NCBI RefSeq assembly: GCF_001591345.1
Contig: NZ_BCUS01000016.1
Span: forward strand, 1 to 64,000
Source: Variovorax boronicumulans NBRC 103145
GTDB lineage: Bacteria > Pseudomonadota > Gammaproteobacteria > Burkholderiales > Burkholderiaceae_C
Length of the DNA stretch: 64,000 bases
Reading direction: 5' to 3'
In this document: one piece after another, positions 1,697-18,643 of the stretch
Position numbering within the stretch: position 1 is the first letter of the stretch
How the letters are laid out: each line of letters opens with the position of its first letter
Position numbers and translations under genes: made by a program
The notes under the pieces: model-generated
What the model was told of the DNA's origin: nothing
The model's database searches: none
What the model saw: only the letters and a program-made list of their open reading frames with translations

Positions 1697-2323
1697 GAAG
1701 CACTCCAGATGAACGCAACCCGCCTTTCCGACAGACAGGGTCGCTACCGCGCGGTGTGGTGCCCGGCGGTCAAGGTGTGCGCATCAAGAAGAAGGTAGCG
1801 GACCGCCGGGCTCAGGAATGTGCGGACGTGCGTCGGAGGACCGACGTGGCCGCCGCGACGACGGCGCCCACACGACGACCGGCCGCTGCCATGGGCAGGG
1901 CTGCGCGCGCAGGGTATCGACGGGGCGAGAGGAGAGCCATGGGCCGCGAGTGTAGGGGATTCTGGCCAGATTGGCCAATTATGGCCCTACGGGTGCAGCG
2001 AGGAATTGCCGTGGAATCTCTGGATTCAATCTGCAGAACACCTGAATTGAAATCAAAAGCCTTTGATTCGAGACGGCGTAAATGAGTGATGGGAAAAGGG
2101 TGGGCAAGCGCTCATATTTACCGGATTCTTTGTGAGTTCGATATTTTCCTCGCCGCCGGGATTTCTCTGTAATTCATCGATGAATAATTTCTTGTGCCGT
2201 ATCGAATGAGTGGTTTTAAATTGATTTTATGGGTTCGAATTTATTGAGAATATTATTTGGTGCATAAGAGGTATCACTGAGACTGCTGTTGTTGTCTCGA
2301 TCTCAATTGTTTTGACTCTCCCA

Positions 2324-2339
2324 GAAGCTTAAAAGCTTC
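2324..2339. repeat. Perfect inverted repeat in the AT-rich leader
   Basis: GAAGCTT and AAGCTTC form seven-base arms around a two-base AA centre. It lies about 245 bases upstream of the first DUF11 gene. With such a short loop it is more likely a protein-binding dyad than an RNA hairpin. No T-run follows, so it is not a terminator. Confidence 0.4.
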
Positions 2340-2494
2340 AATTGAGGGGGCTTCAGGTCGAACGAAATGGTGGATGCATTTTGTTTGTTCAATATGTCTC
2401 ATTTGCGCATCCTCTGTTCTTTTGTTTGATTGCCATAAAAGCCCCGAGACATAAGAATTCAGTACGCAAAAATATGAGCGACCGATTGCCTTTA

Positions 2495-2543
2495 ATTGCA
2501 AGCAATGTTGATTATTTGTTTGCAATAAGAGGTTGATTGCAAA
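2495..2543. promoter_or_regulatory. Cluster of ATTGC/GCAAT motifs upstream of the DUF11 genes
   Basis: ATTGCAAGCAAT (2495-2506), TTTGCAAT (2519-2526) and ATTGCAAA (2536-2543) lie within 50 bases, ending 41 bases before the start codon of the first DUF11 gene. Repetition of one short dyad this close to a start suggests an operator cluster. The binding protein cannot be named, and AT-rich sequence makes such hexamers more likely by chance. Confidence 0.35.
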
Positions 2544-2584
2544 TTTTGCGACGTGAATTTCAAATATTGTTAATTGGGGTTTGA

Positions 2585-3208
2585 ATGACAGCATCCACAT
2601 GGGACTTGTTCTTGTCGTCGTCGCGAGGCCGCGCAGGGGCGGTCCACCCGCTGATCCGCGCGGGCCTGGCCCTGCTTGCCGCAGGCGCCGCGACCGTCGC
2701 GTTCGCGCAACCCACCGCTTCGCTGGAGGCGCCGCGCGCACCTGTCGCGGCCCAGGCCGTGACCGTCGTCCTCGCCCAGTCGAAGGTGGTCAAGGGGCCC
2801 GACGGCAATGAACAGTTCCAGGACGCGGCCACCATCAAGCCGGGCGACGTCATCGAATACAAGGCCACCTACACCAACAACACGGGCAAGCCGGTCAAGG
2901 GGCTGGTGGCGGATCTGCCGATCCCCGAGGGGCTGGAATACCTGCCGCGCAGCGCGAAGCCAGGTGCCAGCCTCGTGAAAGCCGCCACCAAGACCGCCGT
3001 CTTCGAGCCCGAGCCGCTCGTTCGCAAACTGCCCGGCGGCAAGACCGAACCCGTTCCCTACAGCGAGTACCGCATGCTGCGCTGGAGCCTGGGCCAGTTG
3101 CCCGCCAACGGCAGCCTCGCCGTGAGCGCGCGCGCCAAGGTCGAGACCGTCGCGCCGCCAACGGCTGTGCCTCCCACGCCCGCCACGCCGCCCCCGCGCG
3201 GCAAGTAA
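2585..3208 (+). CDS. Exported single DUF11-like domain protein, 207 aa
   Basis: The protein has an unusually long N-region of about 20 residues, a hydrophobic segment (AGLALLAAGAATVAFA) and a likely cleavage after AFA near residue 41. The mature part contains one DUF11-like beta-sandwich: a lead-in KPGDVIEYKATYTNNTGKPV, then DLPIPEGLEYLPRS, then a closing strand (GSLAVSARAKV) and a Pro/Thr-rich tail. DUF11 folds are common in surface and adhesin-like proteins; no enzymatic role is implied. A GGGG lies seven bases before the ATG. It is the first of four codirectional genes encoding proteins with the same fold, in the same frame as the next two. Confidence 0.72.
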   Translation: MTASTWDLFLSSSRGRAGAVHPLIRAGLALLAAGAATVAFAQPTASLEAPRAPVAAQAVTVVLAQSKVVKGPDGNEQFQDAATIKPGDVIEYKATYTNNTGKPVKGLVADLPIPEGLEYLPRSAKPGASLVKAATKTAVFEPEPLVRKLPGGKTEPVPYSEYRMLRWSLGQLPANGSLAVSARAKVETVAPPTAVPPTPATPPPRGK

Positions 3209-3221
3209 AGGCCGCGCCGGC

Positions 3222-3257
3222 CCTCGCGCGCTGCGCGAGGCGAGGGCGCCCGCCTTT
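3222..3257 (+). terminator. GC-rich hairpin after the first DUF11 gene
   Basis: CCTCGCGC and GCGCGAGG (3222-3229 and 3233-3240) form an eight-base stem with a three-base loop, and TTTT follows at 3254-3257. The T-run is 13 bases from the stem, so this is a weak or partial terminator or attenuator. It may lower expression of the next gene relative to this one. Confidence 0.4.
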
Positions 3258-3370
3258 TCCATCGATCTCTTGTTTCTGAGTGCCAGTCGGCAGGTACGCG
3301 TTCGCCCATCGAAACGTACCGGCCAGGTTCTTTCGTGTTCCCGTTCATCGACAACAGAGGAGAAAACTAC

Positions 3371-6268
3371 GTGATTCCCACCCAGCCAACCCAACGCGCC
3401 AGCGGCTGCAAGCCGTGCGCGCCCTGGGCAGGCGCCGCAGCGTTGACGCTGGGCTTCCTTTTCGGAAGCCCGGCTGCATTTGCCGCGTCGCCGCCCGCCA
3501 ACACAGTCATCGGCAACCAGGCGTCCGCCAGCTATTCGGACGCCGCCGGAACGACCCAGGTCGCCACTTCCAACTTGGTGCAGACCACCGTTCTCCAGGT
3601 GGGCTCGTTCACGCTCGACAGCGTCAACCAGGTCACGACGACCATCGTCAACACCAAGTCCGGCGCGGCCGGTGCCACGGTCTATGCGCCTCACGTGCTG
3701 ACCAACACCGGCAATGGCGTCGACACCTTTGCTCTCACGGTCAAGGCCGACGCAGGCAAGTTCTCGCGCGTCGAGGTCTTTGCCGACGCCGACGGCAACG
3801 GGCTGCCCGACAGCACGACGTCGCTCTGCTCGGCAACTGGCACGGACGTCTGCACGGTGACCCCGGCGCAGAGCGTGCCCGGCAACAACGGCGCGTTCCG
3901 TTTCGTCGTGGCCTACACGATCCCGGGCTCGGCCACCGGCGCCGGCAATTTCGATGCCGCAACGATCACCGCCACCCCGGGCACCCCGGCGCTGTACACC
4001 GCGCCGAACACCTCGGCGGCCGACAAGGACGAGGTCAAGCTGGCCACCGATGCGGTGTTCAACCTCACCAAGGTCATCGGCACTCCGTCGGTCGCAGCGC
4101 CGGGCAACGGCGTCTGGCCGACCGCGCCGGCCAGTGGGCCGAGCTCTTCCGCTGCCTGCACGGCCACGAGCTGGACGGCGGGTCTCGCGTCGAACGCGAA
4201 CTGCCAGTACTCGGTCTACACCCTCACGTTCAACAACACGGGCGGCGCACCGGGCAAGTTCGCGCTGTCCGACGTGTTGCCTGCAGGTTTGACCTACGTC
4301 ACCGGTTCGGCCGTGTGGAGCGGTGCGTCGGGTACGGCGCTGGGTGACGGTGCGGGCGGTGATCCGTCGGGCATCGACTTCCAGGTGACCGGCAACACGC
4401 TGAATGCCGTGGTGGCTTCGCTGAGCCCGAACGTGACGCAGACGCTGAGCTTCGTGGTGCTGGTGAACAGCACCGCGGCGGTCGGTACGTCGACCACCAC
4501 CAACGTGGCCCGCTACAACCCCGCGACCGCGCCGGCCGGCGTGACCGCGGCGTTGATCGGCACGGTCGGTTCGACCTCCAACCCGTCGGCGTACACCGTC
4601 CTGGCGCGTTTCGGCATCGTGGTGGGTTCCAACCCGTCCACGGCTGCAACGGCCCTCGACGCGACACCCGGCACACCGAACCCCGCCGGGCAAGATCTGA
4701 CCACGAGGCAGTTGGCCGTCGCAGGCGGCAGTGTCCGTTTCCCGCAAACCGTGTTCAACACGGGCGGCGCCTCGGATGCCGTGAACCTGTCGATCTCCGC
4801 CAGCACCTTCCCGGCCGGCACGAGCTTCCAGTTCTTCGCGGCCGACAGCGGCGCACCGCTGCTGGACACGAACGGCGACGGCGTGCCCGACACAGGCCCG
4901 ATTCCAGCCGGCGTGAGCCTCAACATCGTGACGCAGGTGCAACTGCCGCCGGGCACGGTGGGCGGCGCCTACGTGGCCACGGTGCTCGGTCGCTCCGTGA
5001 ACGACAACACGAAGATCGATGCGACCGAAGACCGCCTCGAGCGCGTGATCGAGACCCTGGTCGACCTGACCAACACGAAGATTGGTACTGGCACCGGCAG
5101 CGTCGCCAACGGCGACCTCGGCGCGGGCCCCAGCCCGTTGCCAACGCAGGTTCATGACACGGGCGCCGGCACCGGCACGGTCTTCACGCTGTGGGTGAAG
5201 AACCATGACGTGATCGACGCGACCTACAACCTTGCCGCCAGCCAGACGACCGGTTTCCCGGGCGCGCTGCCGGCAGGCTGGACGGTCAAGTTCGTGGCGT
5301 TTGGCGGCACCTGTGCATCGCCGGCCATCTCGAACCTCGCGGTCATCGCCGGGGGGCAGCAGGCGGTCGAAGCGTGCGTCACGCCGCCTTCCTCGCAAGC
5401 CGCAGTCACTGCAGTGAAGATCTACTTCAAGGTGCAATCCACTGCGGTGGCCTCGACCGGCGGCATCGCTTCCGACGTCAAGACCGACGCAGTGACGGTG
5501 ACCTCGACGGCCCTGCAGCTGGGCGCCTCGCTCACGCCGAACAACAACGGCCAGGTCGCGCCCGGCGGCACCGTGGTGTATGCCCACACGCTGACCAACA
5601 TCGGCGCCCAGAGCTGCGGCGCGTACACGCTGACAGCCACGGTGCCCGCGGCGGATGCGGCGCAAGGCTGGACCACCACGGTCTACCTCGACGTCAACGG
5701 CGACGGACAGATCGACGCTGGCGACACGCCGGTGAACGGTCCGCTGGCAAGCCTGCCGGCCGGTGCAGCGCAGAAGCTGCTGGTGCGCGTGTTCGCGCCG
5801 GGCGGCGTGAGCGCGGGTGTCAGCAACACCACGACGGTGACGGCCACCTTCACCGACCCGGCCCCCAACTGCGGTACCCCTTCGGCCACCGACATCACGG
5901 CCGTGATCACCGGTCAGATCCGCGTCCTCAAGACGCAGGCGGCCGATGCGACCTGTGACGGCGTGGCGGACACCGCGTTCGCGGCAACGTCGCTGCAGTT
6001 GAAGCCGGGCCAGTGCATCGTCTACCAGGTCGTTGCCACCAACGAAGGCATCGTGCCGGTGACCAACATCGCCATCAACGACGCACTGCCGGCGTACACC
6101 GTCCTGAGCGCGAAGCAGCCTGCATTGCAGTGCGAAGCCCCGGGCATTGGCGGTACGGCGCCGGCCTTCGCATCGACCGCCACCGCGGTCAGCTGCGGCA
6201 GTGCGGCCAACACCGTGGCCCCAGGTGGAAAGGTCACGCTGACCTTCGCCGTGCAGATCAACCCCTGA
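3371..6268 (+). CDS. Large exported DUF11/Ig-like repeat protein, 965 aa
   Basis: I chose the GTG at 3371 because AGAGGAG lies eight bases upstream; an ATG at 3335 has no such site. A signal peptide ends near ...SPAAFA. The mature chain is a string of beta-sandwich repeats of the DUF11 kind: TNTGNGVDTF near residue 115, FNNTGGAPGKFALSDVLPAG near 290, and a last one over residues 855-965. Asp-rich loops reading ADADGNGLPD (about 137), DTNGDGVPDTG (about 499) and DVNGDGQIDAGD (about 774) look like calcium-binding DxNxDG turns. There is no membrane anchor, sorting motif or barrel, so it is probably secreted or held by a partner. It is unrelated to any enzyme I recognise. Confidence 0.75.
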   Translation: MIPTQPTQRASGCKPCAPWAGAAALTLGFLFGSPAAFAASPPANTVIGNQASASYSDAAGTTQVATSNLVQTTVLQVGSFTLDSVNQVTTTIVNTKSGAAGATVYAPHVLTNTGNGVDTFALTVKADAGKFSRVEVFADADGNGLPDSTTSLCSATGTDVCTVTPAQSVPGNNGAFRFVVAYTIPGSATGAGNFDAATITATPGTPALYTAPNTSAADKDEVKLATDAVFNLTKVIGTPSVAAPGNGVWPTAPASGPSSSAACTATSWTAGLASNANCQYSVYTLTFNNTGGAPGKFALSDVLPAGLTYVTGSAVWSGASGTALGDGAGGDPSGIDFQVTGNTLNAVVASLSPNVTQTLSFVVLVNSTAAVGTSTTTNVARYNPATAPAGVTAALIGTVGSTSNPSAYTVLARFGIVVGSNPSTAATALDATPGTPNPAGQDLTTRQLAVAGGSVRFPQTVFNTGGASDAVNLSISASTFPAGTSFQFFAADSGAPLLDTNGDGVPDTGPIPAGVSLNIVTQVQLPPGTVGGAYVATVLGRSVNDNTKIDATEDRLERVIETLVDLTNTKIGTGTGSVANGDLGAGPSPLPTQVHDTGAGTGTVFTLWVKNHDVIDATYNLAASQTTGFPGALPAGWTVKFVAFGGTCASPAISNLAVIAGGQQAVEACVTPPSSQAAVTAVKIYFKVQSTAVASTGGIASDVKTDAVTVTSTALQLGASLTPNNNGQVAPGGTVVYAHTLTNIGAQSCGAYTLTATVPAADAAQGWTTTVYLDVNGDGQIDAGDTPVNGPLASLPAGAAQKLLVRVFAPGGVSAGVSNTTTVTATFTDPAPNCGTPSATDITAVITGQIRVLKTQAADATCDGVADTAFAATSLQLKPGQCIVYQVVATNEGIVPVTNIAINDALPAYTVLSAKQPALQCEAPGIGGTAPAFASTATAVSCGSAANTVAPGGKVTLTFAVQINP

Positions 6269-6283
6269 TCTGACATCGGCGCC

Positions 6284-6315
6284 GCCGACGGTTCCGCCAG
6301 GGCCGTCGGCTGTTT
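6284..6315 (+). terminator. Hairpin after the 965-residue DUF11 gene
   Basis: GCCGACGG (6284-6291) pairs with CCGTCGGC (6303-6310) across an 11-base loop, and TGTTT follows at once. It begins 15 bases after the stop codon. The short T-run makes termination leaky, so read-through to the giant gene downstream remains possible. Confidence 0.45.
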
Positions 6316-6484
6316 CCCGCGAGGCCCGAGTTCGCCCCGGTGCCTCGCCTGTTTCCCCTGCCGCTTTCACGCACATCGCTGCATGCAAGCCGTGCCTTGC
6401 CGGCCCTCGAGGCGGCAGAGGAAAGAGTTCTTCGACTGTTTGACGTGTCTCCCGCAGCGGGAGGTGCCAGGGAAGGTTCACCGC

Positions 6485-9400
6485 GTGCCACTTCTTCTTT
6501 CTTCTTCTTCGCGTGCCGGCATGCCTCGGTGGTGGGGCTGCGGGGCGCTCGCGCGCAGCGCGATGGCGGCCTTCGGCCTCGCACTCGCCACCGCAGTGGC
6601 ACTCGCCATGCTCTTCGCACCGATCGCGCAGGCGGCGCCCGCGCCCGGCGGCGTCGTGATCCGCAGCATCGCGACGGGCACCTACGTCCCGGCCGGCCTC
6701 GGGCACAGTGAGACGGCCATCTCCAATGCCGTGACCGCCAGCGTGCTGCCCGTGGAGGCGCTCTCGCTCACGCAGGACCAGCGCGTGAACCGCCCGCCCG
6801 GCACCGTCGTCACGCTGAGCCACCTGCTCACCAACACCGGCAACGTGGCTTCGCGCTACACCCTGGGCCTCGTCAACGACGGCGCGGGCTGCCCGGCCGA
6901 CGGGCTCGACCTGTCGGCGTTGCGCGTGGCGCGCGACGCCAACCACAACGGCGTCGTCGACGCCTCCGATCTGGTGCTGCTGCCCGGTGCCGCCGGCGCG
7001 CTCGCGCTGGAGCCGGGCCAGACGGCCGAACTTCTGGTGCAGGGCACCATTCCCGCGGCGGCCAGCGGCAGCGCCTGCGTGGTGCTGAGCGCGACCACCG
7101 CCCTGCAGGGCGCGAGCGCGAGCAATCGCGACACGGTCGACGTGGGCAGCGTTGCCGTGCTTGCGCTCGTCAAGTCGGCCAGCCATGCGGGCGCCATCGT
7201 GCCCGGCAGCACGCGCATCGACTTCAGCATCTCGGGCACCAACACCGGCGCGCGCGACGCGCAGCCCGGCGGCGCGGCCGCGCCCACCGGCACGCAGGTG
7301 CTGGTCAATGGCAGCCCGCGCAGCCTGCTGCTGCTGCGCGACCTCGTGCCCACGGGCACGCGCTACCTGCCTGGCAGCCTGCAGAGTACGGCGGCCGGCG
7401 CGGTGCGCCTGTTCCGCATGCCCGGCGACCCCGACTTCAGCTACCGCTCCGCTGAAGACGGCGCGGCGATCGAAGTCGCCATCGGCGTGCCCACCGCGCT
7501 CGCGCGCAACGCCTCCATCGCCATGCAGTTCGCGGTGCAGGTCAAGGCCGATCACACCAGCGACATCCGCAACACCGCGCATGGCCATTACAACGACGGC
7601 GTCGCGCCCGCCGCGTCGCCGTCGAACACGGTGGTGATCGCGGCGGCCCCGCCGCAAGGCCAGGGCCGCATCGGCGTGGCCAAGGCAGCCTCCACGCCGC
7701 GCATGCAGCGCGGCGCGGACGGCCAACCCGACGGCACGGCCACCGTCACCTTCGATGTCCACGTGCGCAACTACGGCACGACCGCGCTGCACGGCGTGCA
7801 GCTGGCCGACGTGCTCGAAGGGCAGGGCGCCGCGCAGTTCGGCACCCGCACGACCGCCGCGGTGCCGGGCGCGCGCCAGTACGCCGTGGTGCCCGGAACC
7901 CTGGCCATCGTCGGTGGTTCGGACAATGGCGTGGCGGGCACGGTGGCGGCCGTCAACGCCGCATTCAACGGCACGGCCTCCGCGCAGGACCTGCTCGCGC
8001 CCGGTGCGGTGCTGCCCGTGGGCGGCCAGTTCACGGTGCGTTTCGACGTGCGCTTTCACGTGTCGGGTCGCGCGGGCGCGCTGCTCAACACCGTGCGCGC
8101 ACAGGCCGCGCTCGCCGCCGGTGGCCCGCCCACCGTCTTCGACGACTCCGTCAACGGCAGCAACCCCGATGCCGACGACGACGGCAACCCCGGCAACGAC
8201 ACCTCGCCCACGCCGGTGCAGCTGCAGCAGCCCGTGCTCTCGCTCGTGAAGAGCGTCTCGCAGCCGCGCCGCGTGGCAGAGGGCGTCTACGAACTCGACT
8301 ACCGTTTCAAGGTCGGCAACACCGGCGCGGCCCCGGCCCCGAACGTGCGCGTGATCGACAACCTCGACTGCACTTTCGACATGGACAAGCCCGACGGCCT
8401 CGTCGCCGCCTGGGAACTCGTCGGCACGCCGAAGGTGCGCAACGGCGTGCTGCAGATCGCATCCGGCTTCACCGGCCGCGCCGCCTGCGACCGCGAGGCT
8501 GCCGCCAGCGCCGACCCCTTCAAGCTGCCCATGCAGGCCGCACTCGGCCTCACCGACGGCAGCCGCGCGTTGGCACCCGGCCAGAGCGAAGACATCGAAT
8601 TCACCGTGCGCGTCACCCGCAAGCCTTCGAGCAACGGTGCTCGCGTGCCATTCACCAACAAGGCCTGGGCCGCCGCCTTCGAGCAGAACACCGTTCCTGC
8701 GTCGTCGGCCGCGCTCGTCACCGCGAGCGCCAGCAGCGCGTCCTCCATGCTGGCCGACCCGCAGGGCGTGGTCTACAACGCCGTCACCCGCCAACCGGTG
8801 GCGGGTGCCGTCGTCACCTTCACCCGCCAGTCGTGCAGCGACGGCGCCGCCCGGCCGATGGCCCTGGCCGAGGTGTTCGGCGGCGACAGCGGCGTCTACC
8901 GCGCCAACGCCGACGGCAGCCTGTCGATGACCACCGGCGCCGACGGCGGCTACCAGTTCTATTTCCTGTCGCCGCCGGTTACCGGCAGCTGCACCTATGC
9001 GCTGGGTGTGGCGCCGCCCGCGGGCAGTGCCTACGCGGCGCCTTCGCAGCTCATCCCCGCCACGCCCGGCACCTTCGACCGCTGCGGCGCCATCGTCCCG
9101 AATGCGGCGTCGCCGCAGGGCGCGGAGCCCACCACGCACCACTTCTCGCTCAAGGCCGGTTTCGAGCCCTCGGGCGCGGCCTGCGACGTGGTGCACAACC
9201 ACATCCCGCTCGACCCGGGCAACGTGCTCGGCCTCGTGCTGCGCAAGGAAGGCAGCAAGCGCCAGGTCGAGTTCGGCGATTTCCTCGACTACGCGCTGGT
9301 CGTCACCAACAAGACCGGCTTTCCCATCACCGGCCTCAGCCTCTCCGACCAGTTGCCGCCGGGCTTCGCCTACGTGGCCGGCAGCGCGCGTCTCAACGGC

Positions 9401-12400
9401 GCGGCCACGGCCGATCCCGTGGGCGGGGCCGGTCCCCGGCTGGTCTTCAACCAGCCCGGCCTCGCGCTTGGCATCGACCAATCCGCCACGGTGCGCTACC
9501 GCGTGCGCGTGGGTGTTGGCGCACCGACGAACGGCGATGCCGTCAACCGGGCCCGCGCCAATTCCGGCCCGATGCAGTCGAACCTCGCCCAATGGACCGT
9601 GCGCGTGACCGGCGGCGTGTTCTCCGACGACGCCTTCCTCTTCGGCAAGGTCTACATGGACTGCCGGCGCGACGGCCGCCAGCAGGGCGTCGACGAAATC
9701 GGCGTGCCCGGCGTGCGCCTGTACATGGAAGACGGCACGCACGTCATCACCGACGTCGAAGGCAAGTGGAGCCTGTACGGCCTCAAACCGGTGACCCATG
9801 TGCTGCGGCTCGATGCCACCACGCTGCCCGCCGGCGCGCGGCTCGAAGCGCTCGACAACCGCAATGCCGGGCGCCCCGAAAGCCGCTTCGTCGATCTCAA
9901 GAAGGGCGAATTCCACAAGGCCAACTTCGTCGTCGCCAACTGCGACGCGCCGACGGTGATGAGCGAGGTCATCGCGCGGCGCGAGGCCATCGCCGCCGTG
10001 CCCGACACCGAGGCCGAAGCCCAGGTGCGCATGCGCCTGGACCCCGAAGGCCGGATCGTCCTCGTGGGCGATCGGCGCGCGCTGCCTGCCAGCGGCGAGG
10101 TGCGCGCGGGCGGCAGCACCGGCACCGGCACCACGCAGGCCAGTTCGGCACCGCTGATCGCGATGCCCACCGCACCGGCGTCGCCCAGCAGCTTCATCGG
10201 CGGCGCGTCGGGCAGCCAGGGCAGCACGCTCGGCGCGGCGACCGGCGGTGCCGCGGCGGATGGCGCATCCCCCGTGGGCAGTCTTTTCTCCGGCATGCGC
10301 CTGTCCCGCGGTATTGCGCAGCCGACCACCGCGGTGGCGCCGCCGCAGGCCGTCCCCAGCCCCATCGACCTCGAGGCCCTGCTGCCCCGCATCGAAAGCA
10401 ACGCCCTCGGCTTCATCGACCTGCGCGATGGCGACACCTTGCCCTCGACCTCGCTCAACGTGCGCGTCAAGGGCGAAGCCGGCCTGGCGCTGCGCCTGAG
10501 CGTCAACGGCCAGGGCGTCGAGGAGCGCCGCGTCGGCAAGAAGACCGAGCAGGCCAGCCGCAAGATCGGCGCCTGGGAATACATCGGCATCGTGCTGCGG
10601 CCCGGCGTCAACCGCCTCGTGCTCGAAGCCGTCGATCCGTTCGGCAACGTGCGCGGCGCTGCGCAGCAGATCAGCGTCACCGCGCCCGACAAGCTCGGCG
10701 CCATCCACATCGACGTGCCCGCCTCTGCGCAGGCCGACCTGCGCACGCCCGTCGTCGTGAAGGTGCGCCTGACCGACGCGGCCGGCGTGCCCGTGACCGC
10801 GCGCACGCAGCTCACGCTCGAGACCGACCGCGGCCGCTGGCTCGACGAAGACTTGAACCCCGCCGAGCCCGGCACCCAGGTCTTCATGGACGGCGGCGTG
10901 GCCGACTTCCGCCTGCTGCCACCCGGCGAACCCGGTGACGCCCGCCTGCGCGTGACGGCCGCGAGCTTCACGAGCGAGGCACGCCTGGCGCTGCTGCCCG
11001 AGCTGCGCCCCATGATCGGCGTCGGCATCGTCGAAGGCGTGCTCGACTTCACGAAGCGCGGCCAGGTGCCGTTGGGCGCGATGCCCGCGGGCGCGGCCTT
11101 CGAGGCCGAGCTGTCCGGCCTGGCCGACGAGGGCAACGACAAGCGCCGCGCGGCCGCGCGCGCTGCCTTCTTCTTCAAGGGCGCCGTCAAGGGCGAGTAC
11201 CTGCTCACTGCCGCCTACGATTCCGACAAGACGCGCAAGGACCGCCTGTTCCGCGACATCCGCCCCGACGAGTTCTACCCCGTGTACGGCGACTCGTCCG
11301 CGAAGGGCTTCGACGCCCAGAGCACGCAGAAGCTCTACGTGCGCATCGACAAGAACCGCTCCTACCTGCTGTACGGCGACTTCAGCACCGCCAGCAGCAC
11401 CGAGGTGCGCAGCCTGAGCCAGGTCAGCCGTTCGCTCACCGGCCTCAAGCATGTCTACGACGACGGCGAGGTGCGCACCACCACGTATGCCTCGCGCACC
11501 GCGCAGACCCAGCAGGTCGAGGAGTTCCGCGCCGTCGGCACCTCGGGCCCGTACTACCTGGGCGCCAGGGGCGGCGAGTTCGTCGAGAACAGCGAACAGG
11601 TCGAGATCGTCGTGCGCGACCGCAACCAGCCCGACCTCGTGCTGCAGCGCACGACCGTGACGCGCTTCGTCGACTACACCGTCGAGCCGCTCACGCGCCG
11701 CCTGCTGTTCACGCGCGCCATCGCGTCGGTCGATGCGAACCTCAACCCGCAGTCGATCCGCGTCACCTACGAGGTCGACGCGGGCGGCCCCAAGTTCACC
11801 GTGGCCGGTGCCGACGTGCAGCTCAAGGTGGCCAAGAACCTGCAGGTCGGTGTGGTCGCGGCCATCGACGAAAACCCCGAGAACCGCCGCAAGCTCGGTG
11901 CCGTCACCGCCCTGGCCCGCTTGGGCGACCACACCACTGTCGCCGGCGAATGGGTGCAGACCGACTCCGACCGCAACGGCAAGGGCAGCGGCGCCCGCGT
12001 CGAGCTGCGCCACCAGGGTGAAGACCTGGCCGTGGCCGCGCTCGCGAGCAAGACCAGCACCGGCTTCGACAACCCCGGCGCGAGCTTCTCGGCCGGGCGC
12101 ACCGAAGCCTCGGCGCGCGCCGAGTACCGGCTCGACGCCGCCACCGCGCTGCGCGGCGAACTGCTCTACGGCCAGGACGCCCTGCGCGAAGGCACCCGCC
12201 GCGGCATCACCGCCAGCGTGCAGAGAAAGTTCGGCGAGCAGCTGGTGGGCGAGTTCGGCCTGCGCCACGGCCACAACGGCACCGGCCTGGGCAGCGGCTC
12301 GGGCTTCGACTACGGCCAGGTCTCCACCTACAGCGGCAACCTGGGCAGCGGCGTGGCTGCCAACAACGTCACCGCGCTCGGTGCGGCGGCCAACGCCGGC

Positions 12401-13708
12401 ACCCAGGCCAACGCCAACGACGACGACCTGACCACCGTGCGCGCCCGCCTGTCGGCGCAGGTGCCGGGCGTGCCGCAAGCCAACGTGTTCGTCGAAGGCG
12501 AGCAGGACATCCGCAAGTCCGACCGCCACGTGCTCGCCGTGGGCGGCAACTACGCTGTCACCGACAAGACGCGCCTGTACGGCCGCTACGAACTGGTCTC
12601 CAGCCTCTACGGGCCGTACGAGCTGAACGCGGGGCAGTCGAACAACGTGGGCATCCTGGGCATCGAGAGCGCCTACATGGAGGGCGGGCGCGTGTACAGC
12701 GAGTACCGCCTGGCCGACAGCCTCGACGGGCGCGCCGCGCAGGCCGCCACGGGCGTGCGCAACACCTTCAGGGTCGATGACCACTGGCGCCTGACCGGCG
12801 GCGTCGAGCACACGCGCCAGATCGGCGGGCTACGCAACAGCGGCAACAACGGCACCGGCCAGGCCAGCGGCCTGGCGGGCGACTCCACCGCCATCACCGG
12901 CGGCGTGGAATACACCGACGCGCGCATCAAGGCCAGCGGCATCCTCGAAGGCCGCCACGGCGACGACGCGGACACGCGCCTGTTCAGCGCGGGCTTCGGC
13001 TTCAAGATCGATGCGTCATGGAGCCTGCTGGCGCGCAGCGTGATGAGCGCCAGCGAAGGGCAGGGCGCCAACGCCGGCAACGCGCACCACCTGGCGCGCC
13101 ACCAGATCGGCCTGGCCTACCGCCCGGTCGACACCGACAGCTGGAACGCGCTCATGCGCTACGAGCGCCGTTCCGAGCGCGTCACCGGTACCGGCAGTTC
13201 GACCGGCGCACTCGACGGCGCCAGCGTCTTCGGTGCGGGCAACGGCAGCGCAGCGCTGCCCGGGCGCACCAGCGCCGACATCGTCTCGGCCCACCTCAAC
13301 TACAACCCGCGCCCCGGCACCGTCATCAACGGGCGCTACGCCGCCAAGTGGTCGCGCGCCGACGACGGCCTGCTGCGCAGCACCTACTGGGCGCACCTGC
13401 TGCAGGCGCGCTACACGCAAGACCTCAACGACAGCTGGGACCTGGGCGTGCAGGCCGGCCTGCTGCGTGGCAAGGGCGGCGGCCTGCAGAAGACCTTGGG
13501 CATCGAAGTCGGCTACCAGGTCATGAAGGACCTGTGGGTGTCGGCGGGCTACAACTTCGTGGGCCTGAAAGACCGCGACCTGGCGGCCAACGACTACACG
13601 AGCAAGGGCGCGTACATCCGGCTGCGTTTCAAGTTCGACGAGACGGCGCTGGGTGCCGCGTCGGCGGGCGCGGCAGCCCCCGTGAAAGACGAGCGGACCG
13701 ATCGATGA
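6485..13708 (+). CDS. Giant outer-membrane protein: DUF11/Ig-like stalk plus C-terminal beta-barrel, 2407 aa
   Basis: The GTG at 6485 is chosen because AGGGAAGG lies eight bases upstream; an ATG at 6521 is possible. After the signal peptide (...FAPIAQA) come DUF11-like repeats near residues 227, 395, 584 and 915, prealbumin-like/SdrD-B-type domains near 761 (GVVYNAVTRQPVAGAVVTF) and 1054 (VPGVRLYMEDGTHVITDVEG), a linker rich in Gly/Ser/Thr/Ala near 1200-1280, and a Big-1-like domain near 1407. From about 1512 to the end the sequence alternates polar and hydrophobic residues, with repeated YGRYELVS- and YSEYRLAD-type strands, finishing with YIRLRFKF and a 22-residue tail. That is typical of an outer-membrane barrel, but at roughly 900 residues it is far larger than an autotransporter domain. 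The next gene begins 20 bases after the stop. Confidence 0.75.
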   Translation: MPLLLSSSSRAGMPRWWGCGALARSAMAAFGLALATAVALAMLFAPIAQAAPAPGGVVIRSIATGTYVPAGLGHSETAISNAVTASVLPVEALSLTQDQRVNRPPGTVVTLSHLLTNTGNVASRYTLGLVNDGAGCPADGLDLSALRVARDANHNGVVDASDLVLLPGAAGALALEPGQTAELLVQGTIPAAASGSACVVLSATTALQGASASNRDTVDVGSVAVLALVKSASHAGAIVPGSTRIDFSISGTNTGARDAQPGGAAAPTGTQVLVNGSPRSLLLLRDLVPTGTRYLPGSLQSTAAGAVRLFRMPGDPDFSYRSAEDGAAIEVAIGVPTALARNASIAMQFAVQVKADHTSDIRNTAHGHYNDGVAPAASPSNTVVIAAAPPQGQGRIGVAKAASTPRMQRGADGQPDGTATVTFDVHVRNYGTTALHGVQLADVLEGQGAAQFGTRTTAAVPGARQYAVVPGTLAIVGGSDNGVAGTVAAVNAAFNGTASAQDLLAPGAVLPVGGQFTVRFDVRFHVSGRAGALLNTVRAQAALAAGGPPTVFDDSVNGSNPDADDDGNPGNDTSPTPVQLQQPVLSLVKSVSQPRRVAEGVYELDYRFKVGNTGAAPAPNVRVIDNLDCTFDMDKPDGLVAAWELVGTPKVRNGVLQIASGFTGRAACDREAAASADPFKLPMQAALGLTDGSRALAPGQSEDIEFTVRVTRKPSSNGARVPFTNKAWAAAFEQNTVPASSAALVTASASSASSMLADPQGVVYNAVTRQPVAGAVVTFTRQSCSDGAARPMALAEVFGGDSGVYRANADGSLSMTTGADGGYQFYFLSPPVTGSCTYALGVAPPAGSAYAAPSQLIPATPGTFDRCGAIVPNAASPQGAEPTTHHFSLKAGFEPSGAACDVVHNHIPLDPGNVLGLVLRKEGSKRQVEFGDFLDYALVVTNKTGFPITGLSLSDQLPPGFAYVAGSARLNGAATADPVGGAGPRLVFNQPGLALGIDQSATVRYRVRVGVGAPTNGDAVNRARANSGPMQSNLAQWTVRVTGGVFSDDAFLFGKVYMDCRRDGRQQGVDEIGVPGVRLYMEDGTHVITDVEGKWSLYGLKPVTHVLRLDATTLPAGARLEALDNRNAGRPESRFVDLKKGEFHKANFVVANCDAPTVMSEVIARREAIAAVPDTEAEAQVRMRLDPEGRIVLVGDRRALPASGEVRAGGSTGTGTTQASSAPLIAMPTAPASPSSFIGGASGSQGSTLGAATGGAAADGASPVGSLFSGMRLSRGIAQPTTAVAPPQAVPSPIDLEALLPRIESNALGFIDLRDGDTLPSTSLNVRVKGEAGLALRLSVNGQGVEERRVGKKTEQASRKIGAWEYIGIVLRPGVNRLVLEAVDPFGNVRGAAQQISVTAPDKLGAIHIDVPASAQADLRTPVVVKVRLTDAAGVPVTARTQLTLETDRGRWLDEDLNPAEPGTQVFMDGGVADFRLLPPGEPGDARLRVTAASFTSEARLALLPELRPMIGVGIVEGVLDFTKRGQVPLGAMPAGAAFEAELSGLADEGNDKRRAAARAAFFFKGAVKGEYLLTAAYDSDKTRKDRLFRDIRPDEFYPVYGDSSAKGFDAQSTQKLYVRIDKNRSYLLYGDFSTASSTEVRSLSQVSRSLTGLKHVYDDGEVRTTTYASRTAQTQQVEEFRAVGTSGPYYLGARGGEFVENSEQVEIVVRDRNQPDLVLQRTTVTRFVDYTVEPLTRRLLFTRAIASVDANLNPQSIRVTYEVDAGGPKFTVAGADVQLKVAKNLQVGVVAAIDENPENRRKLGAVTALARLGDHTTVAGEWVQTDSDRNGKGSGARVELRHQGEDLAVAALASKTSTGFDNPGASFSAGRTEASARAEYRLDAATALRGELLYGQDALREGTRRGITASVQRKFGEQLVGEFGLRHGHNGTGLGSGSGFDYGQVSTYSGNLGSGVAANNVTALGAAANAGTQANANDDDLTTVRARLSAQVPGVPQANVFVEGEQDIRKSDRHVLAVGGNYAVTDKTRLYGRYELVSSLYGPYELNAGQSNNVGILGIESAYMEGGRVYSEYRLADSLDGRAAQAATGVRNTFRVDDHWRLTGGVEHTRQIGGLRNSGNNGTGQASGLAGDSTAITGGVEYTDARIKASGILEGRHGDDADTRLFSAGFGFKIDASWSLLARSVMSASEGQGANAGNAHHLARHQIGLAYRPVDTDSWNALMRYERRSERVTGTGSSTGALDGASVFGAGNGSAALPGRTSADIVSAHLNYNPRPGTVINGRYAAKWSRADDGLLRSTYWAHLLQARYTQDLNDSWDLGVQAGLLRGKGGGLQKTLGIEVGYQVMKDLWVSAGYNFVGLKDRDLAANDYTSKGAYIRLRFKFDETALGAASAGAAAPVKDERTDR

Positions 13709-13727
13709 AGTCGCGGAGGAATGGCCA

Positions 13728-16700
13728 ATGAAAATGCAAAAAACTGATTCGATGCGCTGCGCGACGGCGCTTCGCTGCCTACCCGTGCGGACGCGTGCGA
13801 GAGGCGTGGCGCACTTCTTTCATGCCTTGCGCGGCGTCGTCTTTCTGGCACTGACCTCGCTCCTGATCGGCACGCAGGCCACGGCTGCAGAGTTCTGTCT
13901 AGGGGAGCGCGGGACCTACGGGGGCGTCGCTGTCACCACGGAGGGCACATGCGAGGCGAAGGACAAGTACGCATGGGGTACCTATCTCCGGCTGGGAAAG
14001 TTCGACATGCGGGAGGCATGCACGTTCAACTTTTCTGTGCCGGTGAAGAACCTGAGCGTTCGCACTTACGTGCTCAACTGCTCCGAAGTTTGGTGCGAGA
14101 AGATGGCGGTGTCCGTCAACGGAAATCACTATCCGTTCACTGCGGCGGAGGTCACGACGCCTATCTCCGATCTATTGGCCACAGAGTTCAGGGCCTTTGC
14201 GCCGGTAAAAATCGATGCAGACGGCAATCTTGAGGGGGCGGAACTCGCCACCTCGTTCGGTTCTGGGGCTTCTGCATGGGCCTTCGTTTCGAGAACATCC
14301 GTATCTTCCGTCACGCTCTCGAACGAGCCAATCCACGGTCAGCCCAATGGGACGGACAACGCGGTGTGCTTCGTCGTGCCAGACCCCCGGTTGACGCTCA
14401 AGAAGGAAGCCAGCGCGGCCCCATGGGTCGTCGGCCAGCCTGCCAGCTACACGCTCACGCTGACGAACACGAGTGGCGTCGCGACTACTACCGATACGGT
14501 GGTGACCGACAACGTGCCGCCTTCGCTGACCATCGGCGACCTTCCCCCGTGGTGCAGCCGAATAGGCCAGAACGTCGGTTGCCTGGTGCCCGCAGGGCTC
14601 ACATCGTCCGTGTCCTTCGTCATTCCGGTGACGCCCCTGCCTTCTGCCGTGCCCAGCGTGACCAACACGGCCACGGCATCGAGGGGGGGAGACCCCACTT
14701 GCAACGACACAGGGGCGTGCACGAGCACGGTGACCACGCCGGTGGCCCCTGCGTCTCCGCCCGTCATCACCTCGACCAAGACGGTCAGCGCCAGCCCGCT
14801 GGTGGTGGGGGCGCCCAACCAGTTCTACGCTGTGCTCGTTACCGTGGCCAACGGCACGACCACGGTGCCGATCTCGGTGATGGACACCTTGCCGCCGGGC
14901 GTCACCCTGCGCGGGGCCCCGACATTGGTGGCGGGAACGACCACCGGCGTGCTGAGTGGTTGCCCGACCTCGGGATCGAACACGACCAACTGCAGCGTGG
15001 CGGCGGGCATCGCGCCCGGTACTTTCGAAATACGGATTCCTGTGAACGTCGCCGCGTCGGCCGTGGGCGCAACGGGCGGCACGAACATGGTGAATCTCAG
15101 CGGCGGAGATGTCGCCTGCACGGCGGCGCCAGGAGAGGCGTGCGATGCGAGCACGCCGGCCACGCGCGTGGTGCCCCAAGCGACGCTGAAACTCGAAAAG
15201 ATCGCTGATGTGGCGCAGTTCGCCGTTGCCGCGCAGGCCAGCTACACACTGAAACTGAGCAGCACCAACGGCGGCACGACCACGGCGAACAGCGTCATCA
15301 CCGACACCATTCCTGCCTCCTTGACGATCGGCACGCTGCCTTCGGGGTGCAGCAGGGTCGGGCAGGCCGTGACGTGTACGGTGCCTGCGGGCATGGCAAC
15401 GTCCGCGTCGTTCGTCATCCCGGTGACGCCCTTGGCGACCGCGAGGCCGAGCGTGACCAACGTGGCCACGGCCGTGGGCGGCGGGGACCCTGCCTGCAAC
15501 GGTGCGGGGGCATGCGTGAGTGCGGCGACCACACCTGTGGCCCCTGCGCCTCACATCATGGCGTTGAAATACGCGAGCACCAATTCATTGATCGTGGGAA
15601 TGCCGGGGCAGTTCTATGAGGTCGATGTCTGGGTGGAGAACGGACCGACCACTGCGCCGCTCGTGCTTGAGGACGTGTTGCCCCATGGCATCACGCTGGC
15701 AGGGCCGCCCGTGCTGCTCGCGATCGGGACCACGGGTGTCCTGAGCGGCTGCTCTGCGGCGGGCTCCGCGATCGTCCGTTGCAGCGTGGCTGCGGGGGTC
15801 GCGCCGGGCTTGTTTCAGATCCGGATTCCCGTGCACGTCGATGCCGCGGCCGTGGGGCCGCAGGGGGGAACGAACACCGTCAACCTGAGTGGCGGCGGCG
15901 ATCCGGCATGCACAGCCACGCCAAACGAGGCGATCTGTGATGACACGACGCCGCCGGTCGCCGTCCGCCTGGGGGACCCGAAACTTCGCATCGCCAAGGA
16001 AGTGATCAGCGGTTCCGGCACCCATCGCTTCGACTTTGCGCTGTCGGGCCTGAGCGTGGCCCGCGACACCATCACGGTCACCGTGCCGGGGCAGGGGGCC
16101 GGCGCGCAGACGATCACCGGCAAGGTCGGCGTCCCGGCGACCATTACCGAAACGTCGCCCGCCGGCTGGCCCGTGAATCCGGTGAGTGCCAGTTGTTACG
16201 ACCTGAAGGACCTCATTGCACCGTCGCCCATTCGCGGGGCGTCGGGTTCCAGGCCGGCGGCCGCGGCGGCACAGGCACCGCCGGTGGTGCTGGCAGGCAA
16301 CGTGCTGACGATTCCCGCCGAATGGATGGTGGTGGGCGCGGACATCCGATGCACCTTCGTCAACAGCGATGCACATGCCATCACCGGCCGCGTCTTCAAC
16401 GACAACGGCAGCGGCGCGGGCGTGCCGAACGACGGCGTGGCCAACGGCGGCGAGGCCGGGCTGGCGGGCGTGCGGATGCGGCTCACGAACTGCGGCGCGC
16501 GCGTGTGGTCCACGGCCGTGACCGACGGCTCGGGCCGCTACCGCCTGGAGGTGCCGTCGCAGCCTTCGTCGCCGTCCAACGGCGATCCGCTGTGCGTCGA
16601 AGAGAGCACGCCGGCGGGTCATCTGTCCACGGGGGCGTCGGCCGGCAGCACGCCGCTGCCTTCCGGCACGGGCGTGGCCGTGGGCGGGCGGACCTACACC

Positions 16701-17567
16701 TACACGCGCACCGCCGCGGGGGCGCCGGACCACATCGCCTTTGCATGGAAAGAGGCCCGGGCCGGCGAGCTGAACTTCGGTGACGTGGCCCTCAACCGCT
16801 TCGGCGCCGACAGCGCCCGCACCGGCTCGCCCGGCAGCAGCGTGAGCCACGCGCACACCTTCGTGGCGCAGACCGGCGGGACGGTGAGCTTCGGCGTGGC
16901 CGGCGCGGCGGCCACACCGCCGATCGACGGCTGGAGCGCAAAAATCTACGAAGACCCGGGCTGCACCGGTGCCTTGCAGGCCGGCGCCGCGGTGCTCTAT
17001 CCGCCGGCGGTGCCCAGGCCTGTGACGACAGGGCAGAACCTGTGCGTGGTGGTGCAGGAGTTCATTCCGGCCAGCGCGCTCGCCGGCTACAACGACAAGC
17101 GCTCGGTGCAGGCGAGCTTCGTGTTCACGAACGCATCACCCGCGTTGAGCGCGAGCTACCTCGTGCTCGACACCACGACCGTGTCGAGCACGGCGCTGGA
17201 GCTCAAGAAGGAAGTGCGCAACCTGACGAAGAACGGCGACTTCGGACTCAACAACGAAGCCAAGTCGGGCGAGACGCTCGAATACCGCATCACCTACACC
17301 AACAACGGCGCAACGCCGATCAGCGGCCTGACGGTGAGCGACGTCACCCCGGTCTACACCAGCTTCGTCGCCTCGCAGGAAGGCGCGACCCCGGCGACGC
17401 TGACCGCTTGCACGAAGCGCACGCCGGCCAATGCCTTGCCTGCGCCGGTCGTGGCGTGCGCGGCCGCACAAGCGCCGGGCGGAACGGGGTCGCTGGACTG
17501 GAAGTTCACCGGGCAACTCGCGCCCGGCGGTACGGGCAGCGTGCGATTCAGGGTGACGGTGAACTGA
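13728..17567 (+). CDS. Exported DUF11 repeat protein with duplicated repeat unit, 1279 aa
   Basis: GGAGG precedes the ATG and the gap to the giant upstream gene is 20 bases, so the two are probably cotranscribed. A signal peptide ends near TQATAA (about residue 50). A Cys-containing N-terminal domain of about 170 residues (residues 50-215) is not recognised. Four DUF11-like repeats follow, beginning near residues 220, 345, 486 and 610; the first and third match each other, as do the second and fourth. Next comes a segment starting VISGSGTHRFDFALSGL (about 765), an SdrD-B-like domain near 884 (ITGRVFNDNGSGAGVPNDG) and a final DUF11 domain from about 1155. No barrel or anchor is visible. The first 650 bases are less GC-biased at third positions than the rest. 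Confidence 0.74.
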   Translation: MKMQKTDSMRCATALRCLPVRTRARGVAHFFHALRGVVFLALTSLLIGTQATAAEFCLGERGTYGGVAVTTEGTCEAKDKYAWGTYLRLGKFDMREACTFNFSVPVKNLSVRTYVLNCSEVWCEKMAVSVNGNHYPFTAAEVTTPISDLLATEFRAFAPVKIDADGNLEGAELATSFGSGASAWAFVSRTSVSSVTLSNEPIHGQPNGTDNAVCFVVPDPRLTLKKEASAAPWVVGQPASYTLTLTNTSGVATTTDTVVTDNVPPSLTIGDLPPWCSRIGQNVGCLVPAGLTSSVSFVIPVTPLPSAVPSVTNTATASRGGDPTCNDTGACTSTVTTPVAPASPPVITSTKTVSASPLVVGAPNQFYAVLVTVANGTTTVPISVMDTLPPGVTLRGAPTLVAGTTTGVLSGCPTSGSNTTNCSVAAGIAPGTFEIRIPVNVAASAVGATGGTNMVNLSGGDVACTAAPGEACDASTPATRVVPQATLKLEKIADVAQFAVAAQASYTLKLSSTNGGTTTANSVITDTIPASLTIGTLPSGCSRVGQAVTCTVPAGMATSASFVIPVTPLATARPSVTNVATAVGGGDPACNGAGACVSAATTPVAPAPHIMALKYASTNSLIVGMPGQFYEVDVWVENGPTTAPLVLEDVLPHGITLAGPPVLLAIGTTGVLSGCSAAGSAIVRCSVAAGVAPGLFQIRIPVHVDAAAVGPQGGTNTVNLSGGGDPACTATPNEAICDDTTPPVAVRLGDPKLRIAKEVISGSGTHRFDFALSGLSVARDTITVTVPGQGAGAQTITGKVGVPATITETSPAGWPVNPVSASCYDLKDLIAPSPIRGASGSRPAAAAAQAPPVVLAGNVLTIPAEWMVVGADIRCTFVNSDAHAITGRVFNDNGSGAGVPNDGVANGGEAGLAGVRMRLTNCGARVWSTAVTDGSGRYRLEVPSQPSSPSNGDPLCVEESTPAGHLSTGASAGSTPLPSGTGVAVGGRTYTYTRTAAGAPDHIAFAWKEARAGELNFGDVALNRFGADSARTGSPGSSVSHAHTFVAQTGGTVSFGVAGAAATPPIDGWSAKIYEDPGCTGALQAGAAVLYPPAVPRPVTTGQNLCVVVQEFIPASALAGYNDKRSVQASFVFTNASPALSASYLVLDTTTVSSTALELKKEVRNLTKNGDFGLNNEAKSGETLEYRITYTNNGATPISGLTVSDVTPVYTSFVASQEGATPATLTACTKRTPANALPAPVVACAAAQAPGGTGSLDWKFTGQLAPGGTGSVRFRVTVN
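14386..15963 (+). repeat. Tandem duplication of a ~790-base two-domain unit inside the 1279-aa gene
   Basis: Two DUF11 domains (A, B) are followed by a second A, B pair. Anchors give the period: GTGACCAACACGGCCACGGC near 14658 recurs in diverged form at an offset of 795 bases, and a CTGAGTGGT/CTGAGCGGC anchor recurs at 789. Both copies stay in frame. The copies have diverged at many positions, so the duplication is old. Confidence 0.6.
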
Positions 17568-17570
17568 CGA

Positions 17571-17621
17571 CTTGCGCGTCAGCAGGCGCGCAAGCTGCTG
17601 CTATCAGCAGCGTCCCTTTTT
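17571..17621 (+). terminator. Double hairpin ending the DUF11 cluster
   Basis: CTTGCGCG/CGCGCAAG (17571-17578 and 17587-17594) is followed by GCTGCTG/CAGCAGC (17594-17600 and 17605-17611) and then a run of five T at 17617-17621. It starts three bases after the stop codon of the 1279-residue gene. The second hairpin and T-run overlap the last codons of the convergent YXWGXW gene, so termination may act in both directions. Confidence 0.55.
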
Positions 17622-18302: not shown

Positions 18303-18378
18303 TGGCTCCTCGACCTGGGCTCGAACCAGGGACCTACGGATTAACAGTCCGGCGCTCTACCAACTGAGCTATCGAGGA
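18303..18378 (-). tRNA. tRNA-Asn (anticodon GTT), copy 2
   Basis: The 76-base leftward sequence starts TCCTCGATAGCTCAGTTGG, has the D-loop TAGCTCAGTTGGTAGAGC, the anticodon loop CTGTTAA (GTT, asparagine), the T-loop GGTTCGAGCCC, and closes with an acceptor stem TCCTCGA/TCGAGGA followed by G and an encoded CCA. It is identical over all 76 bases to the copy at 18568-18643. It has its own promoter and terminator. Confidence 0.96.
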
Positions 18379-18389
18379 ACAAGCCTTCA

Positions 18390-18418
18390 ATTATATTCAA
18401 TGGAATCGCCGTTCTGAA
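18390..18418 (-). promoter_or_regulatory. Promoter of tRNA-Asn copy 2
   Basis: A perfect -10 TATAAT lies at 18395-18390 (leftward), 11 bases before the tRNA 5' end, with TTCAGA at 18418-18413 as the -35 at a 17-base spacing. The perfect -10 suggests independent transcription of this copy. Confidence 0.6.
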
Positions 18419-18513
18419 CGGCGACCCTCAATTTTTGCCAATCGAAGTGCGTGGGGCGATTTCTTTCCATCGCTTGGCACACGTCTTCGTTCGACGGTCG
18501 TCTCACAAATGAA

Positions 18514-18544
18514 AAGGCCCGCTACCTTGTGAGTAGCGGGCCTT
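18514..18544 (-). terminator. Intrinsic terminator of tRNA-Asn copy 1
   Basis: AAGGCCCGCTAC pairs over 12 bases with GTAGCGGGCCTT around the same seven-base loop as in the twin at 18262-18292, followed leftward by TTTCATTTG. One stem pair is C-G or T-A between the twins, so pairing is preserved by a double change. Confidence 0.78.
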
Positions 18545-18567
18545 CCAGAGGCGTTGCGGCTTTGTGA

Positions 18568-18643
18568 TGGCTCCTCGACCTGGGCTCGAACCAGGGACCT
18601 ACGGATTAACAGTCCGGCGCTCTACCAACTGAGCTATCGAGGA
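18568..18643 (-). tRNA. tRNA-Asn (anticodon GTT), copy 1
   Basis: Same 76-base sequence as at 18303-18378, with GTT anticodon, canonical D- and T-arms and encoded CCA. It is the promoter-proximal copy of a tandem pair whose start points lie 265 bases apart. Confidence 0.96.

Follow-up and report, generated by a model that had tools for sequence, protein, structure and literature searches.

Comparison with known secretion systems

In two-partner secretion (type Vb) a large adhesin-like protein is exported by a dedicated outer-membrane barrel, and orphan cargo genes occur; the chaperone-usher pathway has a large barrel with an inserted domain, immunoglobulin (Ig)-like domains and Ig-like exported partners, while the type IX secretion system combines a very large barrel with cargo carrying a conserved C-terminal beta-sandwich domain. 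Partial likenesses to all three were found in a set of four genes, designated here P1 to P4, which occupies positions 2585-17567 of the window, i.e., of the whole analysed stretch of 64,000 nucleotides (positions 1 to 64,000 of contig NZ_BCUS01000016.1) from the 6.7 Mb draft genome of Variovorax boronicumulans NBRC 103145, whose closest named relatives by the barrel are also Variovorax. The giant P3 has a predicted outer-membrane beta-barrel with an apparent inserted domain, and the repeat common to P1-P4 is that of the DUF11/TIGR01451 surface proteins, but this name denotes a domain, while P1-P4 are inherited together and include a dedicated barrel. The envelope system formed by these genes is real, co-inherited, widespread and, as far as the literature was searched, undescribed: no account of the set was found, passages of PMC11879582, PMC12282271 and PMC8779699 dealt with unrelated subjects, and one listing was blurred by longer DUF numbers. 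The preliminary description of the locus had likewise known of no named system with this composition.

As judged from sequence, none of the four compared systems fits. In contrast to type Vb, the constant part of P4 is C-terminal instead of N-terminal, the P3 barrel is apparently far larger, and there are additional core partners, P1 and P2. No Pfam family covered the barrel as a whole, and POTRA and ShlB were neither matched by P3 (E up to 1) nor included in the 22 families matched among 27 barrels of this type (E up to 1). The TPS domain was absent both from the families matched by the window P4 (E up to 1) and from the 18 families found in 20 P4-type sequences (E up to 0.001). At E up to 1, the autotransporter (type Va) barrel PF03797 had no match in P3 or the 27 barrels, and the usher family PF00577 had none in the 27 barrels; no pilus-chaperone family appeared among the Pfam matches of P1-P4. 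The type IX C-terminal sorting family was not detected on the window P1-P4 (NCBIfam scan, E up to 1), and the SprA family had no match in the 27 barrels, other type IX components not having been searched. Known secretion families were considered by Pfam and NCBIfam scans, and none fitted. A VIA-align structure comparison with a poor query model placed FimD chains first, but at a root-mean-square deviation of 10.8 and with VDAC almost level, so that this result was not used as evidence; the absence of SprA from the matches listed does not speak against it.

Gene products and domain organization

The members of the set were identified from the open frames and all lie on the plus strand. P1 (2585..3208) encodes 207 aa with a single DUF11-type domain, a conserved RW motif and a Pro/Ala-rich C-terminal tail. 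P2 (3335..6268; 977 aa, or 965 from the GTG at 3371) consists of DUF11-type repeats, the C-terminal DUF11 domain reaching the last residue. P3 (6383..13708; 2441 aa, or 2407 from a later start) includes a DUF11 and SdrD_B-like region, two Ig-like domains and the barrel, while P4 (13728..17567; 1279 aa) has a variable N-terminal part and SpaA_4, SdrD_B-like and DUF11 domains. All four products had N-termini resembling signal peptides, with a hydrophobic core and then an AxA-like site (by a heuristic of our own, used without a signal-peptide program), and no stretch similar to a transmembrane helix was seen past this region in P1, P2 and P4 by a heuristic of the same kind. All four passed the NCBIfam cut-off of 24 bits for TIGR01451 (P1 26.6, P2 44.6, P3 62.2, P4 54.9), while the Pfam DUF11 exceeded its gathering score in P3 and P4 only; the Pfam scan also found SpaA_4 in P4 and sub-threshold SdrD_B. 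The preliminary description of four codirectional genes for exported proteins of DUF11-type build, with a barrel only in the giant one and no membrane anchor in the other three, agrees with these results, and its lengths of 965 and 2407 residues hold from the later starts.

Three parts were distinguished in P3. Residues 792-1220 (8756..10042, plus strand) form a CarboxypepD_reg/DUF11/SdrD_B block, which we call the dock; in a clade with split P3 it ends a separate giant gene located just upstream of the barrel gene. An Ig-like stretch at residues 1340-1540 (10400..11002, plus strand), for which 11 of 27 relatives matched Big_1 or Invasin_D3, precedes the putative barrel at residues 1541-2441 (11003..13705, plus strand), for which a low-confidence model gave approximately 37 strands and a short inserted domain. 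The evidence for a barrel concerns P3 only and comprises the strands predicted by AlphaFold2 (AF2), which was run on P3 alone, and a weak similarity of P3 or its relatives to porins or OMP_b-brl; the barrel family profile matched the OmpT porin at 4e-6. In the second of two AF2 models, 37 strands of at least 6 residues were counted by us outside the short inserted domain. A Foldseek search against PDB returned generic barrels, S-layer and Ig proteins with low template modeling (TM) scores, and an amphipathicity count against shuffled sequences did not single out the barrel (z 3.7, compared to 3.6 for the Ig part, 3.0 for P2 and 2.7 for P4).

Co-inheritance of the set

The genus survey included 61 genomes and used E limits of 1e-10 for P1, 1e-50 for the barrel and for P2, and 1e-20 for the P4 C-terminal module. 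P1, the barrel and this module were present in an identical selection of 16 genomes, and P2 was present in all of these, with a contig fragment of it in one more (G559); the 61 genomes are related to one another, and no probability was put on the co-occurrence. The 45 genomes without the rest of the set gave no P4 module either (E up to 1e-20). Four genomes (G000, G568, G574 and G584), the host among them, had two P1 and two barrels each. The second set of the host is spread over contigs, one of which (C89) carries P1, P2 and the N-terminal part of P3 and another (C204) the P3 barrel and the start of a P4-like gene; a P4 end on a third contig (C155) probably belongs to it as well. Among the 19 loci of our collection with a P3 relative, 13 had all four genes in order on one strand, and the remaining six were cut, broken, rearranged or distant (L007, L017, L018, L020, L021 and L022).

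The four genes are, therefore, one co-inherited unit in the genus, and chance clustering is rejected because of this co-inheritance. A giant gene alone with the others scattered, the pattern which the preliminary description had named as contrary to its view, was not found in the genus. Since DUF11 proteins occur commonly and domains are shared among P1, P2 and P4, such genes might have been gathered by duplication as mere neighbors with no joint function, yet this explanation is hardly credible given the presence in the same 16 of 61 genomes and the matching copy numbers of P1 and the barrel; the distribution outside the genus, described below, also speaks against it.

Wider distribution and two forms of P3

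The barrel part of P3 matched 33 of the 150 genomes of the family, and a profile of both barrel forms matched 74 of 398 sampled genomes of Pseudomonadota. In 37 of these 74 a single match spanned at least 900 of the 1065 profile positions, the others being partial or in pieces (own count); the phylum survey scored two candidates per genome, which makes its counts minimum values. We picked 40 stretches from the longer match lists, together with three plasmid stretches, and analysed them with hidden Markov models (HMMs) for P1, P2, the P4 C-terminus, the dock, the OmpA-type partners and the barrel.

The dock block and the barrel were in one chain (fused type) in 25 of the 40 stretches. A small P1 was located near the fused P3 at 22 of these 25 loci, while at the other three (L107, L108 and L111) the sequence breaks off upstream of P3, so that a P1 could not be seen; six of the 22 P1 (L053-L058) were in the HMM training set or identical to its member, and 16 were not. 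In the 15 split-type loci the dock-bearing giant, the barrel and an OmpA-domain protein were encoded by three genes, in that order in all 15. The P1-P2-P3 set was present in other Burkholderiales and in a family labeled f39, which we infer to be Mariprofundaceae, L107 being a contig of the named L022. Plasmid carriers included an Acinetobacter haemolyticus plasmid (L073) with P1, a broken P2, P3, an OmpA gene and a DUF11 protein, and a Rhodobacterales plasmid (L074) with P1, P2 and P3. In some distant lineages the P2-like proteins were short and flanked P1 on either side. A scan of viral contigs gave one relative (L106).

In the tree of 59 barrels the 15 split-type barrels formed one group with full support, which the midpoint root set among the fused ones, and the barrel of L075 formed a long separate branch. 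The tree was a quick one, midpoint-rooted for drawing, so a derived position of the split type can only be inferred from it; the label "split" at L002 is an artefact of a contig starting inside P3, and two duplicate rows were left out (L107, the same contig as L022, and L053, the same cluster as L006). The fused state of P3 seen in the window probably came first, and the two halves can exist as separate chains.

With a wide profile, P1 was detected in none of 14 split-type genomes and, strongly, in eight of 12 further fused-type genomes outside the profile, the type of these 12 being judged by frame length alone; in five of the eight it preceded the barrel on a shared contig and strand, and in three it was on another contig. 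Among 18 genomes without a barrel match P1 was absent in 17 and weak in one (G018), where the match was inside a larger frame. Of six barrel carriers of uninspected type, one (G045) likewise had a weak match inside a larger frame. The recurrence of P1-P2-P3 in distant lineages and the lack of P1 in split-type genomes would hardly be produced by coincidental neighborhood. A P1-like frame of 230 aa without P2 or P3 nearby was also observed in G109, another of these six carriers (L131 8768-9460), on another contig than the barrel.

The OmpA domain and the orientation of P3

An OmpA domain (PF00691) was found in six of 28 fused P3 between the dock and the start of the barrel profile, and the HMM derived from the partner proteins named L111, L113, L114, L115, L119 and L126. 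In L075 the domain is N-terminal to the barrel, while in the Xenophilus locus (L016) and in the second copy of the host it is C-terminal to the barrel. It has a gene of its own in the split type and also at several fused loci, e.g. L022, L056, L073, L108 and L109. An OmpA-domain protein is a recurrent further component, missing from the copy in the window.

OmpA domains bind peptidoglycan. With such domains at these positions, the simplest arrangement has the two barrel ends and the linker to the dock on the periplasmic side, and the linker preceding the barrel in P3 is thus probably periplasmic and not a surface stalk. This bears on the role of an outer-membrane anchor assigned to P3 previously: the barrel is in line with it, but a simple surface anchor has become doubtful. 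In the latter case P3 would resemble an autotransporter, its DUF11 region leaving through its own barrel to form a stalk, and the secreted P1, P2 and P4 would attach to this stalk as subunits of a fiber or coat. The combination of N-terminal repeats and a C-terminal barrel in a single chain would suit such an arrangement, as would the relatedness of P2 to the N-terminus of P3 (the P2 HMM matched P3 in L053, L055 and others), which might be expected of fiber partners. Nevertheless, we regard it as unlikely: the OmpA domains that separate the DUF11 part from the barrel in six of the 28 relatives would need the periplasm, in the split clade the DUF11 giant and the barrel are separate chains, and the 27 barrels did not match the Pfam autotransporter barrel at the limit given above.

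Conserved core and variable P4

The variable member of the set is P4. In 12 close sets its mean identity to the window copy was 0.08-0.24 at residues 1-700 and 0.56-0.70 after residue 900, while in the same sets P2 had 0.63-0.78 per block of 100 residues and P3 0.64-0.89 past its first 100 residues (0.19 there). The length of P4 in close relatives ranged from 996 to 2604 aa; gene starts from our own caller may be short, as in L006, whose P4 of 785 aa compares with a longest frame of 996 aa in its copy L053. SpaA_4 was matched in 12, Big_1 in seven, PATR in four and a glycine-rich family in four of the 20 P4-type sequences, which comprised 18 P4 (cut in L002, L018 and L054) and two downstream genes (in L015 and L016). 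The latter are extra genes located 3' of P4 in Pseudacidovorax (L015 28849-30436) and Xenophilus (L016 27605-30206), the former of which matched SpaA_4 and PATR.

The conserved C-terminal module of P4 (residues 921-1279; 16488..17564, plus strand) ends flush with a DUF11 domain and is also present on duplicated and orphan P4 genes. Tandem P4 genes were found in G574 and G584, adjoining the same WXXGXW-repeat and TonB-receptor neighbors as in the window. The genome G563, with a single P1-P3 set, had a tandem P4 pair and a third P4 approximately 2.6 Mb away along the contig with no P1-P3 beside it, and the same lone P4 was located in G592 on a contig other than that of its single P1-P3 set.

By these patterns P1 and P2 are the conserved core, while P4 is variable and at times multiplied, which is the behavior expected of a cargo or of a displayed protein. 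The three smaller proteins, previously described jointly as secreted partners or fiber subunits, are co-inherited with P3 as that description would have it, but they are not equivalent to one another. An alternative is a structural envelope layer, either an S-layer-like coat or a periplasmic scaffold, in which P1-P4 would pack together and P3 with OmpA would tie them to the outer membrane and peptidoglycan with no export of cargo. We find this improbable: a P4 varying in length and domains, duplicated or orphaned, is unlike a lattice subunit, and the patchy presence in the genus (16 of 61) fits a displayed variable protein better.

The last strand of the DUF11 domain forms the very end of both P2 and P4, and P1 consists of such a domain followed by a short tail. 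In profile comparison of the C-terminal DUF11 domains P2 and P4 matched at E 2e-17, P1 and P4 at 5e-12 and P1 and P2 at 8e-5. Flush DUF11 ends were also seen in many DUF11-bearing partners of distant loci, and tails on most of the Burkholderiales P1 shown. It is a guess that this shared C-terminal domain might serve as a recognition signal.

Proposed function

We give about an even chance to the following reading: P3 and its partners P1 and P2 form a platform in the outer membrane which faces the periplasm and builds or exports the variable P4. The C-terminal barrel of P3 would be placed in the outer membrane, with the preceding linker and, most simply, the whole DUF11/Ig part directed toward the periplasm, and P1 and P2 would be exported core partners; the system of many relatives would further include an OmpA domain that binds peptidoglycan, either fused or encoded by an adjacent gene. 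P4 would be moved to the cell surface and displayed there, through or on the barrel, its conserved DUF11-ended C-terminal module being the part recognised by the platform and adhesion the possible end use. A more specific version remains tentative and rather doubtful, namely an unnamed export or assembly system of Pseudomonadota whose barrel of approximately 37 strands, tied to peptidoglycan in many relatives, would bring periplasmic DUF11 proteins to the surface by means of their C-terminal DUF11 domain, with P1/P2 as the core and interchangeable cargos, including the orphans, served by one machine.

Several observations weigh against the platform reading. No OmpA domain is seen in the window P3, and the search for OmpA-type matches was negative for the window as a whole and for 13 of the 14 close loci (L016 being the sole exception); in addition, 22 of the 28 fused P3 show no internal OmpA domain. 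Both AF2 barrel models, made with 16 and 19 sequences, were poor, with a predicted local distance difference test (pLDDT) of 59.5 and 60.1 and a predicted TM score (pTM) of 0.36 and 0.40, respectively. Since the split type has no P1, this protein is not needed by every barrel of the family, and three of the 12 further fused-type genomes (G377, G409 and G412) were also without a P1 match, with a weak match only in G243. The orphan P4 of G563 and G592 share one chromosomal neighborhood and may represent a single event, and, DUF11 being common, the shared C-terminal DUF11 may reflect plain kinship and not a signal.

If the platform reading is true, environmental bacteria would possess a widespread route for putting large variable proteins on their surface, the C-terminal module of P4 would be a handle for finding further cargos, and the split and fused forms would show which parts must touch.

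Genomic surroundings

The set is preceded by an AT-rich region (1960..2584, without strand) with 40.5% guanine plus cytosine compared to about 70% around it and a promoter-like site at 2430-2458, and a terminator-like hairpin with a T run (17594..17611, plus strand) is located 3' of P4. Both calls are pattern matches, with three promoter-like sites found versus 0.9 expected and 16 terminator-like ones versus 11.7. The AT-rich region is mostly unconserved at the G574 site, where the blastn match ends at window base 1994 and restarts at 2546.

The five flanking genes scanned comprised one of GreA/GreB type on the upstream side, a WXXGXW-repeat gene and a TonB receptor gene on the downstream side, and two genes without a family match; no usher, sortase, chaperone or secretion ATPase was found among these five directly beside the set, as had been noted previously. 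The neighboring genes vary among several of the close loci carrying the set. In G122 the GreA-type and WXXGXW genes lie without the set between them, its own set being on another contig, and a stretch of 65 bases matching the 3' end of P4 at 80% remains between the flanking genes (L165 2674-2738). Insertion of the set into a site that had never been filled was considered for the window and is weakened by this remnant, which looks like a deletion scar; the G122 site points to loss or movement of the set as a unit.

In the Pseudacidovorax sp. NFM-22 stretch (L021 8869-13444) a dock-end fragment is opposite in strand to the barrel frame and lies next to a TPR gene and a T2SSE/MshEN ATPase gene, which may be an inversion or an assembly effect. 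In the Eleftheria terrae plasmid (L075 17363-26225) genes annotated as prepilin, secretin, GspE and GspF come after a pair of a giant and an OmpA-barrel gene and lie on the opposite strand. Response-regulator-like genes, named from sequence starts or annotation, adjoin P1 or the set in the distant loci L113, L114, L126, L122, L074 and L057. Finally, two tRNA-Asn (gtt) genes are located shortly downstream of the locus in the window (18303-18643).
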